Assembly (NCBI RefSeq): GCF_008727865.1
Contig: NZ_VTWU01000001.1
Location: 186,001 to 250,000 of the forward strand
Reading direction: 5' to 3'
Length of the DNA: 64,000 nt
DNA from: Hymenobacter busanensis
GTDB taxonomy: Bacteria; Bacteroidota; Bacteroidia; Cytophagales; Hymenobacteraceae
The notes under the pieces are model-generated. The model was not told where the DNA came from, did not search any database, and saw only the letters and a program-made list of their open reading frames with translations. Of this stretch, positions 15,647 through 23,090 are shown one piece after another. A program made the position numbers and the translations under genes. How positions within the stretch are numbered: position 1 is the first letter of the stretch; each line of letters starts with the position of its first letter.

Positions 15647-16897
15647 CTAAATGTCGTTCAGCCCCGGCAGGCCAAGCCAGCCAGCAGCGCGCCGCGCCAC
15701 GGTTTTGACGCTGTCGACGTCCGGGCCGGTGATGGTCAGGTGGCCCATCTTGCGGCCTATGCGCGCGTGCTCCTTGCCGTAGAGGTGTAGGTGCGTGCCC
15801 GGCAGGCTCAGCACGGCCTGCCAGTCCGGCTCACGTCGTTGTCCGCTGGCGTCAAGCCACACCTCGCCCAGCAGGTTGAGCATAATGGCCGCGGAATGCT
15901 GGCGCGGCTGCGGCAGGGGCAAGCCCGCCATGGCGTGAACCTGCAGGTCAAACTGCGACGCGTCGCAGGCGTCCAGGGTGTAGTGGCCGCTGTTGTGCGG
16001 GCGCGGGGCCATTTCGTTGACCACCAAGCCGCCGTGCGCGCTGCCGTCGTCCACCACAAAGAACTCGACGCACAGCACCCCGACGTAGCCCAGATGCTGC
16101 GCAATAGCTACGGCCGCCTCGCGGGACCTGGTTGCCAGGGCGGGCGGCATATTGCCTTCGTAGGCGTGAGTCACGGCCAAAATGCCGTCGACGTGCACGT
16201 TGCGCTGCGGGGCGAAGCTGACCACTTGTCCGTCCCAGCCGCGCGCCACCAGCACCGAGCACTCGGCGGTGAGCGGCAGCATCTTTTCCAGCACGCAGGC
16301 CACGCCGCCCAGCTCCGCCCAGGCGGCACCCAGTTCCTCGACGGTTTTGACGCGGACCTGGCCCTTGCCGTCGTAGCCCATGCGGGCGGTTTTCAGGATG
16401 CCGGGCAGTAAATCCGCCCGGTTGGCCAACACATCCTGCAGCTGGGCCGGCGTTTCAATCACCGTGTAGGGCGCGCAGGTCACCCCCGAAATGTCGGCGC
16501 AGGCCGTGAAGTGGGCTTTTTCCTCGATGCGGTTTTGGGCAATGCCCACCACGGCCGCGCCCGGTGCTACGGCGCGGGTCTGCGCCAGCGTCTGCAGGGC
16601 CTGAGCCGGCACGTTCTCAAACTCGGTGGTAATGGCCTGGCACAACTGGGCCAGCTGCGCCAGCCCGGCCGGGTCGTCGTAGGCGGTCTGGATGTGGTGG
16701 TGACTCACCAAGCCGGCCGGGCTTTGCGCGTCCGGGTCCAGCACGGCGGTAAAGTACCCCAGGCGCTGGGCAGCGTGCACAAACATCCGGCCCAGCTGGC
16801 CGCCCCCCAGCACCCCCAGCGTGGCCCGCTGGCCAGCAGTGTCCACGCTGCCCGGAAAAATGGGAATCGTCGTTGCAATGTCAGTCCCTTCGCTCAT
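15647..16897 (-). CDS. purK: N5-carboxyaminoimidazole ribonucleotide synthase
   Basis: ATP-grasp enzyme of de novo purine synthesis; carboxylates AIR with bicarbonate and ATP to N5-CAIR, the substrate of PurE. 416 residues. The N-terminal nucleotide motif is [21 protein letters not shown], followed by [12 protein letters not shown], the ATP-grasp loop [10 protein letters not shown] and the catalytic/metal region [19 protein letters not shown], all typical of PurK. The leading 25 residues ([20 protein letters not shown]) extend beyond the usual start, but this ATG overlaps the purE stop by 4 bases (ATGA), so coupled translation with purE supports it. Confidence 0.95.
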
Positions 16898-17427
16898 ACC
16901 GGCAGTTCCATTGCGCGAGCGGCCTCGGTTTGTTCGGCGCGAAACGCCTGCAGCTTGGCCGCCAGGTCCGCATCGTGCAGGGCCAGCATGCTGACGGCAA
17001 ACAGCGCGGCGTTGGCCGCCCCGGCATCCCCGATGGCAAACGTGGCTACCGGCACCCCCTTGGGCATCTGCACGATGCTGTGCAGCGAGTCCACCCCCTG
17101 CAGATGGCGGCTGGCCACCGGCACCCCCAGCACGGGCACCGTGGTTTTGGCGGCCATCATGCCCGGCAGGTGGGCGGCCCCACCCGCCCCGGCAATGATG
17201 GCCTGCAGGCCGCGCGGGCCGGCTTGTTCGGCGTAGGCAAACAAGTCGTCGGGCATGCGGTGGGCCGACACCACGCGCGCTTCGTGGGCCACGCCAAAGC
17301 GCGTGAGAATCTGCACGGCGTGCTGCATGGTGTTCCAGTCGCTGCTGGAACCCATGACCACGCCGACCAGGGGCTTGTCCGGAGCGGTGCCGAGGCTCGG
17401 GGTGTCGGAGGAGGGAAGGGTACTCAT
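16894..17427 (-). CDS. purE: N5-carboxyaminoimidazole ribonucleotide mutase (class I PurE)
   Basis: Converts N5-CAIR to CAIR in purine synthesis. 177 residues. It shows [15 protein letters not shown] (phosphate and active-site loop), [15 protein letters not shown] and [17 protein letters not shown], the hallmarks of the class I octameric enzyme, followed by [32 protein letters not shown]. The start at 17427 (MSTLPSS) is preferred; a further 14 in-frame residues upstream do not resemble the family. First gene of the purE-purK pair, overlapping purK by 4 bases. Confidence 0.96.
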
Positions 17428-17535
17428 AGTAAGCTTAGTAAACGGGGCTGGGCATCCCCGAGTGGGCAAAATAACGTGGTTTCAAGCATGGGTGCGGCCC
17501 CAAAACCGCGTTCGGACAGCATAGTCCTTTAGGCC

Positions 17536-17611: not shown

Positions 17612-18889
17612 TTAGCGCTCCAGCAGGATTTCCGCGCCCAGAATCACCAGGTCTACCCGGCCTTTCAGCGTCTGGTCGATGAAGGGCGTGTTCTGGGATT
17701 TGGACTTCATGAACTCCTTGGTGAAGGTGGTTTCGGCTTCGGTATCGAACAGCAGACACTCGGCGGGCTGGCCGACTTCGATGGTGGGCACCGACAGGCC
17801 CATCAGGCGGCGGGGCTCGGCCGAATAGCGCTTCACCACCAGGTCCCAGCCGAATTTCTCGGGCCGCACGAAGTAGTGGTAGAGCGACACCAGAGCCGTT
17901 TCCAGGCCGGTGATGCCGTTGGGCGCGCTGATGAAGTCCTGGGCTTTTTCAAACGGCGTGTGCGGGGCGTGGTCGGTGGCAATGAGGTCGAATACGCCCT
18001 CCTTGAGCCCTTCGAGCAGCGCGTCACAGTCGGCCTGCGTGCGCAGGGGCGGGTTCATTTTGTAGTTCGTGTCGTAGTCGCCGATGTGCTCGTCGGTGAA
18101 CAGCAGGTGGTGCGGGGCCACTTCCGCCGTCACCTTCACGTCGCCGCGGGATTTCCACCAGCGGATGGTTTCCATGCCGAGCTTGCTCGACACGTGCTGG
18201 ATGTGAATATGCGCGCCCGCCGCCCGGGCCAGGCGAATGTCGCGGTCGATGATGATTTCCTCGGCGCAGGCCGGTGAGCCTTTGATACCGAGCCGGTAGC
18301 TCATCACGCCTTCGTTGAGGGCGCGCGGGCCGGCCAGCTCCGGCACCTCGCAGTGGCTGGCGAAAAACATCCCGAACTCGGTGGCGTACTGCATGGCCCG
18401 CAGCAGCACCGCCGGGTCGTTGGTGGTATCCCCGTCGTCGGTGAGCATTTTCACCCCGTGCAGGCGCATGCCGTCGATTTCGGCCAGTTCCTTGCCCTCG
18501 CGGTTCTTGGTGACGCAGCCGGAGGTATACACCGGAATGCGGGACCGGAGCTTGGCATTGTCGAGCACGGCCGCTACCACCGCCGCCGAGTCGATGGCCG
18601 GGCGGGTGTTGGGCATCATCACCACGCCGGTCACGCCGCCGTTGATGGCCGCTTCGCTGCCCGTGGTAATGGTTTCCTTGTTCTCAAAGCCCGGGGCGCG
18701 GAAATGGACGTGGGCATCAAACATGGCCGGCATCAGGATCCGGCCGCGCGCGTCGATGACGCGGGCGCCCTCGGGCACGGCCAGGCCCTGGCCGATGTCC
18801 TGAATTTTTCCTTCGACCATCAGGACGTCGCCCTCAGTAAGTTCGGGTGAATGTTCGGAGGCGATGCGGGCGTTTTGAAGGAGAAGCAT
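17612..18889 (-). CDS. pyrC: Dihydroorotase (class I, amidohydrolase fold)
   Basis: Third step of pyrimidine synthesis, cyclising carbamoyl-aspartate to dihydroorotate. 425 residues. Metal-binding motif DAHVHFRAPG at about 58-67 (usual form DxHVHxRxPG), then GGVTGVVMMPNTRPAID, the His region HIQHVSSK, and the C-terminal catalytic Asp in IATDHAPHTPFEK. The C-terminus returns to the beta-sandwich (VILGAEILL). The start at 18889 gives MLLLQNARI, a normal amidohydrolase N-terminus; nine upstream residues are unlikely to be translated. It lies 135 bases downstream of pyrB on the same strand, so it is probably co-regulated through the pyrB leader. Confidence 0.93.
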   Translation of the reverse strand: MLLLQNARIASEHSPELTEGDVLMVEGKIQDIGQGLAVPEGARVIDARGRILMPAMFDAHVHFRAPGFENKETITTGSEAAINGGVTGVVMMPNTRPAIDSAAVVAAVLDNAKLRSRIPVYTSGCVTKNREGKELAEIDGMRLHGVKMLTDDGDTTNDPAVLLRAMQYATEFGMFFASHCEVPELAGPRALNEGVMSYRLGIKGSPACAEEIIIDRDIRLARAAGAHIHIQHVSSKLGMETIRWWKSRGDVKVTAEVAPHHLLFTDEHIGDYDTNYKMNPPLRTQADCDALLEGLKEGVFDLIATDHAPHTPFEKAQDFISAPNGITGLETALVSLYHYFVRPEKFGWDLVVKRYSAEPRRLMGLSVPTIEVGQPAECLLFDTEAETTFTKEFMKSKSQNTPFIDQTLKGRVDLVILGAEILLER

Positions 18890-19024
18890 GGAGTGATGAG
18901 TGCAGTAAACCGGCAAGGGAGGTTGGGAGGTCTCGTCTAGTGGAGATGCAAAGAAAGGACGGAATCAGCCACCGCGGCCGGCGTTTGGGGCAAAACCGTT
19001 GCGCTGGCTCGAGGCTGGGCGGCA

Positions 19025-20005
19025 CTAGGCCAGGATCGACTGCTGGCCCGCCAGCTGAGAAGGATGAGCAGACATTTCGCTCGAGGATTCCCCGCCCGGC
19101 CGGAGCCAGTCGAGCACGGCCATGCGGATGGCAATACCGTTTTCGACCTGGTTGTTGATCAGACTGCGCTCATAGTCCATCACGGCGTCGCACAGCTCCA
19201 CGCCCCGGTTCACGGGGCCAGGGTGCATGATGTAGAGGCCGCGCTGGCGGATTTCGGTCAGCCGGTCGTTGGTGATACCGTAGAGGCGGTGGTACTCGCG
19301 CAGGCTGGGGAAGAACTGCACGTCCTGGCGCTCCATCTGCACGCGCAGCAGGTACACGAAATCGGGCGCCCAGGCCATGGCCGCGTCGTAGTTGGTGAAG
19401 AGGCGGATGTTCTCGGGGCCTTGCTTGGGCACCAGCGTCCCCGGGCCGAGGTAGGCGACTTCCATACCCAGCTTTTTCAGCAGGGTGCTGGTGGAGCGCG
19501 CGACGCGGGAGTGGAGAATATCCCCGATGATGAGGACTTTTTTGCCCACCGGGTCGGGATACTTTTCCTTGATGGTGAAGGCGTCGAGCAGGGCTTGGGT
19601 CGGGTGGGCGTGCGCCCCGTCGCCGGCGTTGATAACCGAGGCCTTGGTGAGGCGGGCAATCATGCCGGGCAGGCCCGAGCGGCCGTGGCGCACCACGATG
19701 TAGTCGGTGCGCATGGCCTGCAGCGTCTCCACCGTCTCGCGCACCGATTCGCCCTTGGTGATGGAGGACTGCGCGATGTCGAAATTCGTCACCTCGGCGG
19801 AGAGGCGCTTGGCCGCCACTTCAAAGGAGGTATGCGTGCGGGTGCTGGGCTCGTAGAACAGCATGAGCACCGACTTGCCCTCGAGGGCAGGGACTTTCTT
19901 CACCGATTGGGTGAACAGCTGCTTGAAGGACGTGGATTGGTCGAGCAGGAACTCGATTTCCTCGCGGTGAAGAGATGCAATGTCGAGCAGGTCTTTACGT
20001 GCCAT
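19025..20005 (-). CDS. pyrB: Aspartate carbamoyltransferase catalytic subunit
   Basis: Second step of pyrimidine synthesis, joining carbamoyl phosphate and aspartate. 326 residues. The carbamoyl-phosphate motif is FYEPSTRTHTSFE (51-63), followed by GKGESVRET-like KGESVRETVETL (catalytic Lys/Ser loop), GDGAHAHPTQALLDAFTI, IIGDILHSRVARS, and the aspartate-domain motif MHPGPVNRGVEL. No pyrI regulatory-chain gene is adjacent, so allosteric control of the enteric type is not evident. A long leader of about 380 bases with an internal terminator precedes it (see separate entries), which suggests transcriptional control instead. pyrC follows. Confidence 0.96.
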   Translation of the reverse strand: MARKDLLDIASLHREEIEFLLDQSTSFKQLFTQSVKKVPALEGKSVLMLFYEPSTRTHTSFEVAAKRLSAEVTNFDIAQSSITKGESVRETVETLQAMRTDYIVVRHGRSGLPGMIARLTKASVINAGDGAHAHPTQALLDAFTIKEKYPDPVGKKVLIIGDILHSRVARSTSTLLKKLGMEVAYLGPGTLVPKQGPENIRLFTNYDAAMAWAPDFVYLLRVQMERQDVQFFPSLREYHRLYGITNDRLTEIRQRGLYIMHPGPVNRGVELCDAVMDYERSLINNQVENGIAIRMAVLDWLRPGGESSSEMSAHPSQLAGQQSILA

Positions 20006-20391
20006 AGCGGAGTGGAGGAAAGGTGAGGTCGTTCAGCTAAAACGGACGGTTTGCAGTGTTATCGGCCCCTGCCCACGACGCAGCAACGGGCCGGTGCAGG
20101 CCGGGGCGCTGGTGGCCGCAGCCACGCTTGGGGTGGGTGTCCAGCAGGGGAATGAGCTTGGCGCTGGAGGTATGTATTGGCCGCGGAGCGGCGGCCGACG
20201 AATCCAAAGGGCACAAAAAAACCGTTTCGAAATCCGAAACGGTAGCGGGGCAACAGCCAGAAAAAACAACGGAAATGCCAGCGGCAAAATCGGGAGAACC
20301 GACGGGGGCGAAGACCTTTCGGTCCCCTCGCGGTTCCTTGCCGAGCACGGCCCCGCGCTTCATCAACGATTCTTTTGGTTGAAGCACGGTG
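20006..20391 (-). promoter_or_regulatory. Long structured 5' leader of pyrBC with possible leader ORF
   Basis: Between the promoter and the pyrB ATG lie about 380 transcribed bases. In order they hold a hairpin GCTTCA/TGAAGC, a helix AGGAACCG/CGGTTCTCC enclosing GACC-GAAA-GGTC, a U-rich stretch (GTTGTTTTTTCTGG on the transcript), and an intrinsic terminator. A reading frame starting at ATG 20363 (or GTG 20387) runs through the U-rich stretch and across the terminator to a TAG at 20037, 31 bases before pyrB. A U-tract just before a terminator that is crossed by a leader ORF is the arrangement of the enterobacterial pyrBI attenuator. Alternatives are a separate small RNA ending at the terminator, or PyrR-type control. 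The frame itself may not encode a working protein. Confidence 0.5.
20213..20243 (-). terminator. Intrinsic terminator inside the pyrB leader (candidate attenuator)
   Basis: On the minus strand ACCGTTTCG-GATTT-CGAAACGGT is followed by seven T in total (TTTTTTT counting the last stem base). It lies about 208 bases upstream of the pyrB start and about 150 bases downstream of the predicted transcript start, with no complete gene between, so it would stop transcripts before pyrB unless prevented. Confidence 0.8.
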
Positions 20392-20420
20392 CAAAGCTAC
20401 GGCATTGTTACGCCCGCCAA
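20392..20420 (-). promoter_or_regulatory. Promoter of the pyrB leader (TTG-N18-TAGCTTTG)
   Basis: On the minus strand TTG (20418-20420), an 18-base spacer and TAGCTTTG (20399-20392) match both elements of the Bacteroidota housekeeping promoter. Transcription would start near 20386, so pyrB would have a leader of about 380 bases. Confidence 0.65.
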
Positions 20421-20490: not shown

Positions 20491-20545
20491 GACGCAAAAA
20501 CCCTCGAAAACAGCCATTGTCAGCTGATTGCGAGGGTTTTTGCGT
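20491..20545 (-). terminator. Terminator between maeB and the pyrB promoter
   Basis: Exact 15-bp inverted arms ACGCAAAAACCCTCG (20492-20506) and CGAGGGTTTTTGCGT (20531-20545) surround a 24-base loop. It lies 67 bases past the maeB stop in the direction of maeB transcription. The T-tract is within the stem, so it would work on the minus strand. Confidence 0.7.
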
Positions 20546-20611: not shown

Positions 20612-22906
<2,295 letters not shown>

Positions 22907-23090
22907 AAGGCAACGGGTAGGGCAGGGGAGCGGAAAGCAAAAGAACTGCAAGTAAGCAACGGGCTCGGCAACTGCCGGGATGCAAGCCGAGCAGCTTGCT
23001 ACAGGCACAGCCAAAAGGCCGGAATGCGTTTACGCGATGCGCAAATACGCATATCGAACCGGCATTTTCGTGGGCATGCAGCATCAAATA

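Follow-up and report, generated by a model that had tools for sequence, protein, structure and literature searches.

What controls the pyrB-pyrC operon on the minus strand of the DNA analysed here (the window, 64,000 nucleotides in all), and what is the structured leader that lies between its promoter and pyrB? An earlier note on this sequence had proposed attenuation of a kind equivalent to enterobacterial pyrBI, and had described a promoter (TTG, 18 nt, box) on the minus strand at 20420-20392, followed by hairpins, a U-tract and a terminator with a run of seven T residues about 208 bases before pyrB. These elements were all found in the sequence (our own count from the terminator to the pyrB ATG at 20005 is about 209 bases), and the box, hairpins, U-tract and terminator are kept in relatives. 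The gene order after the leader is pyrB-pyrC and then purE-purK. As the note had said, no pyrI adjoins pyrB-pyrC in the window. The comparisons described below lead us to regard the leader as probably a translation-coupled transcription attenuator of pyrimidine biosynthesis, working like that of E. coli pyrBI, a proposal that gains support from the kept terminator, U-tract and frame, from the copy before a second pyr operon and from the lack of a PyrR match.

Layout of the leader and strength of the signal in a single sequence

The features of the leader and of the genes that follow it are collected in Table 1.

Table 1. Promoter, leader elements and downstream genes, in window coordinates
Feature	Position	Strand	Support
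Promoter: TTG 20420-20418, 18 nt, Bacteroidota -7 box of the TAnnTTTG type, TAGCTTTG, 20399-20392	20392..20420	-	sequence
Leader ORF, GTG 20387 to stop 20037; 116 codons, ~48 as far as the terminator	20037..20387	-	
In-frame ATG, second possible start	20361..20363	-	ATG in 88/108 copies
Hairpin P0 (CTTCA...TGAAG)	20358..20384	-	94.0% of cells paired, 53 copies
Hairpin P1 (CGCGG...CCGCG)	20329..20357	-	two-sided changes in 6/9 pairs; 83.9% of cells paired
Hairpin P2 (GGACC-GAAA-GGTCT, GNRA-like loop)	20312..20325	-	two-sided changes in 3/5 pairs; 89.4% of cells paired
Hairpin P3, longer leaders only	20289..20303	-	94.5% of cells paired in the 29/53 copies with the region
U-rich tract GTTGTTTTTTCTGG, candidate UTP-sensitive pause	20257..20270	-	T enrichment across copies
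Intrinsic terminator (attenuator) ACCGTTTCG-GATTT-CGAAACGGT with T7	20215..20243	-	93.7% of cells paired; two-sided changes in 2/9 pairs
pyrB, aspartate carbamoyltransferase catalytic subunit	19025..20005	-	NCBIfam NF002032 and TIGR00670 above cut-off
pyrC, dihydroorotase	17612..18916	-	TIGR00857 above cut-off
purE, possible distal gene of the pyrB-pyrC transcript	16894..17469	-	TIGR01162 above cut-off
purK, possible distal gene of the pyrB-pyrC transcript	15647..16897	-	NF004677 and TIGR01161 above cut-off

The terminator was recovered by a consensus scan, which gave 2 terminator-like sites in the stretch compared with 2.9 in shuffled sequences, and a consensus scan for sigma-70 promoters, which does not cover the Bacteroidota box, returned none. 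The 173-nt leader folds better than its shuffles (z of -2.6, with 3 of 200 shuffles as good) and the whole 381 nt less clearly so (z of -1.4, with 6 of 100 as good). Given that the terminator scan is not above chance, the case rests on relatives, and it is conservation, as judged from the distribution in genus and family, the covariation and the open frame, that lifts the element above chance.

A long inverted repeat (GCAAAAACCCTCG...CGAGGGTTTTTGCG) at 20493-20543 lies downstream of an 800-amino acid open reading frame (20612-23014), which by eye is malic-enzyme-like; from its sequence the repeat looks like a two-way terminator insulating the pyr leader.

Distribution of the leader in relatives

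A 195-nt element (20206-20400) was found in all eight genomes of the window's genus (g1, which appears to include Solirubrum), its own included, at 86-100% identity, and in 116 of 200 genomes of the family, every one of which belongs either to that genus or to Hymenobacter (g5), where many genomes carry two or three copies. At E <= 1e-3, a profile of the leader peptide run against 291 genomes of the order matched all 35 listed genomes of these two genera and none outside them; the best match elsewhere (E 0.0016) has a stop inside. That the profile matches just two genera within the order suggests an origin separate from that of enterobacterial pyrL.

A start codon at the predicted transcription start and an open frame

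Because the pattern used to assemble the 109 distinct copies requires an A/GTG past the box, start codons were also counted without this requirement. A TAnnTTTG box stands 95-175 nt upstream of 116 of the 187 distinct terminator sites, and at 111 of these 116 a GTG (70) or an ATG (41) lies exactly 4 nt past the box; the five boxed sites without a start codon come from organisms outside the two genera. No box was found by pattern at the remaining 71 sites, which include the Hymenobacter loci L147 and L149, both outside the 109. In Flavobacterium psychrophilum the TAnnTTTG element is reported to occupy -12 to -5 (PMC9723704), and with that spacing the start codon would be +1 and the frame leaderless. 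For the window locus the position of the box predicts a +1 at 20387. The frame that the earlier note had drawn from ATG 20363, through the U-tract and the terminator to a stop 31 bases ahead of pyrB, is present as described, but it belongs to a longer open reading frame that begins at GTG 20387, and the GTG or ATG at +1 is the more constant of the two starts. The rarity of leaderless starts in Bacteroidota counts against a leaderless leader frame: leaderless mRNAs are given as 5.5% in F. psychrophilum (PMC9723704), and about 3.7% of 5' UTRs as under 10 nt in Bacteroides thetaiotaomicron (PMC7366714). The same reports mention leader-peptide attenuation before amino-acid operons in Flavobacterium (PMC9723704) and leader-like short open reading frames in B. 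thetaiotaomicron (PMC7366714).

Between the conserved Lys-Arg/Cys codons and the terminator, the main frame contains no stop in 3885 codons of 108 leaders (L257, of the 109, was not anchored in this count). Stops were present in 15 copies in frame +1 and in 51 copies in frame +2; frame +1 is thus also fairly free of stops, which marks the region as stop-poor by composition. In each of the five leaders with an out-of-frame 5' part a TAATG restarts the main frame, which in these copies begins at the position of the second possible start of Table 1. Counting instead from +1 in 68 unique copies, a count that missed L059, we found no stop in 3040 codons of frame 0 and stops in 67 and 33 copies in the other frames. 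When 1086 inferred substitutions were relocated at random, 23.6 stop-making changes were predicted, compared with 2 scored, and no present-day copy has a stop; this result is only a guide, since the copies share ancestry and codons are disturbed by gaps.

Past the T-run the main frame is no longer open, with 102 stops in 3265 codons. The main-frame stop falls inside the hairpin in 7 of the 109 copies and after the hairpin or T-run in the other 102. Near the terminator, L222 and L225 have indels of 1-2 nt, and the phase differs in six same-genus pyrD leaders and in L243 and L247, with the frame open. A second terminator lies no more than 30 nt from the leader stop in eight copies. In seven (L056, L059, L061, L062, L065, L068 and L075) its stem begins within the leader TAG, which lies 36 nt past the first T-run in six copies and 42 nt past it in one, and in L154 the second terminator is 18 nt farther.

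Selection on the encoded peptide is less easily seen. For the main frame dN/dS was 0.67 in the pyrB set, 0.59 in the pyrD set and 0.66 in divergent pairs, compared with 0.57 and 0.72, 1.31 and 0.88, and 0.99 and 0.86, respectively, in the shifted frames, so that in the pyrB set the ratio does not separate the frames. As proof of coding dN/dS was found weak and was not retained. Third codon positions, too, show high nucleotide identity. Our reading is that translation would be kept rather than the peptide, and little coding constraint would give the same dN/dS. A frame that stays open more faithfully than its peptide is kept is what one would expect if translation itself is what counts.

Comparison with E. 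coli pyrBI and a proposed mechanism

In E. coli K-12 the 44-codon pyrL frame, which closes 3 nt ahead of pyrB, takes in a hairpin, then a U-rich tract and finally the attenuator. Published accounts place the pyrBI terminator within the leader gene (PMC4824070), describe attenuation as dependent on tight coupling along the pyrL frame (PMC5021804) and state that high UTP speeds the polymerase past U-rich pause sites, whereupon attenuators form (PMC7818426). The Hymenobacter/Solirubrum leaders share this order of elements. The window leader, too, lies before pyrB, and its frame runs past hairpin structure and the U-rich tract, crosses the intrinsic terminator and ends ahead of pyrB; the distance from the end of the U-tract to the terminator stem is about 13 nt, compared with about 20 nt in E. 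coli.

There are also clear differences. The pyrL start lies inside a 5' UTR with a GGAGG, whereas the window leader starts at the predicted +1, and its first transcribed bases, GTGCTTC, lack the U-run needed for reiterative transcription. Unlike pyrBI, the Hymenobacter/Solirubrum leaders add the covarying hairpins P0-P2 (of which P0 hardly varies) and stand also before pyrD-pyrF-pyrE and purE, and the window locus has no adjacent pyrI. In an informal comparison pyrL and the window leader have no evident sequence relation and encode different peptides. With respect to the start, the leader resembles Sinorhizobium meliloti trpL, the RNA of which is reported to begin with the ATG of the leader peptide and, once terminated, to be a small RNA (PMC7298713); a start of this kind is predicted in the Hymenobacter/Solirubrum leader, which, unlike the trp operon leader, has no evident control codons and a frame that enters the terminator.

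In the mechanism that we propose, the polymerase would start at 20387, where the first three bases form the start codon, and a ribosome would load on the 5' end. With UTP scarce, the polymerase would slow in the U-rich tract and allow the ribosome to catch up along the leader frame; the ribosome's footprint would then block folding of the terminator and permit read-through into pyrB-pyrC and perhaps into purE-purK. With UTP plentiful, the polymerase would run ahead, the hairpin would fold and transcription would end near 20215. From the parts that comparison of genomes has shown, namely the box, a start codon at fixed distance, the open frame, U-tract, hairpins and terminator, two pyr operons and the lack of a detectable PyrR, we infer the +1 at the start codon, translation, pausing, the UTP signal and termination in the cell. 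We also incline, if only slightly, to the broader proposal that a regulon-wide UTP sensor like that of pyrBI, with a leaderless frame and ribosome loading at +1, arose independently in Bacteroidota lacking PyrR and acts before pyrBC, pyrD-F-E and, in two genomes, purEK, with tandem terminators tied to the leader stop in some lineages.

If true, ribosome-dependent UTP attenuation would have arisen separately outside the enterobacteria, in a lineage with no detected PyrR. Close coupling of transcription to translation in these bacteria would follow, and a leaderless start codon would be tied to an attenuator, which is directly testable. According to a review, transcription that is uncoupled from translation ("runaway") may be found fairly widely among bacteria (PMC7858274), and the coupling of ribosome and polymerase is therefore a live question, for which the leader would be a natural reporter of whether ribosomes closely trail the polymerase in Bacteroidota. 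Attenuation of pyrBI and the leaderless trpL attenuator peptide are both known, and what is apparently new here is the variant in the pyr leaders of Hymenobacter and Solirubrum; in the titles and abstracts of the open-licence literature, among the matches listed, no such leader was found for Hymenobacter or other Bacteroidota.

Covariation of the hairpins

The earlier note had suggested aligning the region with those of relatives, looking for covariation in the helices and conservation of the U-tract. In an alignment of 53 of 58 representatives (L030, L257, L263, L264 and L269 were left out) the helices covary. In relatives the U-tract and terminator are kept upstream of pyrB. For the structure made up of P1, P2, P3 and the terminator, 89.5% of cells are paired, compared with 84.9% when shuffled and 34-45% when slid, and two-sided changes are present in 91 cells compared with 37.2 in shuffles. 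RNAalifold unaided predicts just P1 and the terminator. The 94.0% pairing of P0 says little, as P0 hardly varies. A long rod obtained by single-sequence folding, in which the 3' arm of P1 pairs with downstream bases, was set aside in favor of P1 and P2 because these covary. As a candidate pause hairpin before the U-tract, P3 is present in 29 of the 53 copies, and P2, in most copies, lies farther upstream. T occupies positions -23 to -20 before the terminator in 94-97% of copies, and T content in 10-nt bins is 42-61% from -50 to -11, drops to 36% one bin farther upstream and is 10-21% past -60.

The simplest pyrBI model does not account for the covarying P1 and P2, which give rise to its chief rival. 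According to that rival, the leader would be a cis-regulatory RNA that senses a ligand or protein, with P0-P2 binding a pyrimidine compound or some protein that controls the terminator, and with translation secondary. The two-sided changes in P1 and P2, the high third-position identity and the weak dN/dS would all suit such an RNA, but it would leave aside the total lack of main-frame stops before the terminator in 108 copies, the TAATG restart in the five out-of-frame copies and the position of the stop codons in or after the terminators. Moreover, a search of Rfam gave no relevant match, and no PyrR binding site, in the window at the gathering threshold, and no relevant match around the leader at a permissive one. 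We therefore consider a ligand- or protein-sensing RNA unlikely. In a translation-coupled attenuator P1 and P2 may slow the ribosome, pause the polymerase or bind something.

Genes downstream of the leader copies

All 109 distinct copies lie no more than 2 kb before pyrB (52 copies), the group of an AsnRS-like gene, pyrD, pyrF and pyrE (55) or purE (2), although for 9 of the 109, which come solely from loci fetched by PyrB or PyrD protein searches, this context is given by construction. The element precedes pyrB-pyrC in all 31 loci from the same-genus and family searches (L002-L032). Second copies were sampled at 40 further places chosen from the family match list, and most of these precede the second operon (AsnRS-like gene, pyrD, pyrF, pyrE); L037 is a second pyrB copy with a leader. 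A divergent copy stands before pyrD in the window's own genome and in the other seven genomes of its genus (L150-L157). In L041 (G194) and L042 (G140) the leader lies before purE-purK, and these two copies before purE count against the explanation as a pyrimidine attenuator. One search pattern missed L008, so that 71 of 72 loci entered that count, and the distinct-copy, frame and stop counts drew on all collected loci.

A scan that used the terminator only returned at least 120 stretches, 80 of which were classified. Box and start codon were present in 40, all of them Hymenobacter or Solirubrum records; 38 are open from +1 and 2 are of the TAATG type, and a pyr or pur gene follows in 39, the 40th (L199) being stored as 82 nt. 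The other 40 loci of the 80 had neither the leader nor a downstream match to the pyr and pur queries.

These contexts bear on the alternative raised in the earlier note, that the first 180 bases are an independent small RNA, taken here as one of ~173 nt that would act in trans, with pyrB merely downstream. It would account for the leader having its own promoter and terminator, and action in trans by a terminated attenuator RNA has a precedent in rnTrpL of S. meliloti (PMC7298713), by analogy with which a trans role of the terminated RNA is possible in the pyr leader too. An RNA independent of the operon is nonetheless very unlikely, as pyr or pur genes follow 109 of 109 copies, with three different contexts among them, and the 6S RNA family (RF00013) was over the cut-off in none of 18 genomes, the window's own included, with three weak matches elsewhere and none in the window.

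Several further observations concern the second operon and its surroundings. An AsnRS-like protein of ~347 amino acids precedes pyrD-pyrF-pyrE in L046 and other second-operon loci (e.g. L036 and L038) and matches AsnRS/AspRS models across the catalytic part, below the cut-off; PyrD of the second operon is likewise below curated cut-offs. In L058, L066 and L070 the leader persists although the AsnRS-like gene is reduced to remnants; the leader frame of L070 continues into the remnant. In L041 and L042 the leader is downstream of genes that by eye resemble argC-argD. Five nearly complete Hymenobacter genomes (G016, G020, G024, G028 and G040) gave no PyrB match at E <= 0.001, and all of these except G024 have a strong PyrD match with leader-like sequence upstream.

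The leader peptide

Within the leader peptides the parts LMKRGT and DRKV recur. That a peptide is encoded and that parts of it recur could point to an attenuator of the amino-acid type, where certain codons or the nascent peptide make the ribosome stall, as in trp/his or arrest-peptide systems. By eye, however, no run of one control codon is evident, no residue is invariant in 24 representatives and purifying selection is weak, which together make a system of this type highly improbable.

The leader in the place of pyrR

A PyrR query at E <= 0.001 found no match in any of 24 genomes from the two leader-bearing genera, the window's own included, compared with strong matches in six of six genomes from four other genera of the family. 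Of 25 pyrB loci from the other family genera one is truncated, and the 24 that include upstream sequence all have pyrR immediately before pyrB. In the wider order the same holds for 18 of 28 loci, the other ten having been judged by eye. On the genomes compared, the leader is restricted to the window's genus and Hymenobacter and stands where related genera keep pyrR.

The PyrR-regulated pyr leaders of Bacillus also contain an intrinsic terminator, but in Hymenobacter and Solirubrum the genomes have no detectable pyrR and an open frame enters the terminator. A PyrR-controlled attenuator, for which the place of pyrR in the other genera might speak and which the earlier note had already ranked as the weaker model, has next to no probability, as the lack of a PyrR match excludes such control as far as the search reaches and Rfam gave no PyrR site in the window.

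If our account of the leader is true, the locus would offer a clean case of one regulatory solution replacing another. PyrB of the two genera (19025-20005 in the window) is 45-52% identical to PyrB of other genera of the order, and PyrD of the two genera (L150) has only weak matches in four other genera of the family. From the distant PyrB and the weak PyrD matches, replacement may have affected the pathway genes along with their regulator.
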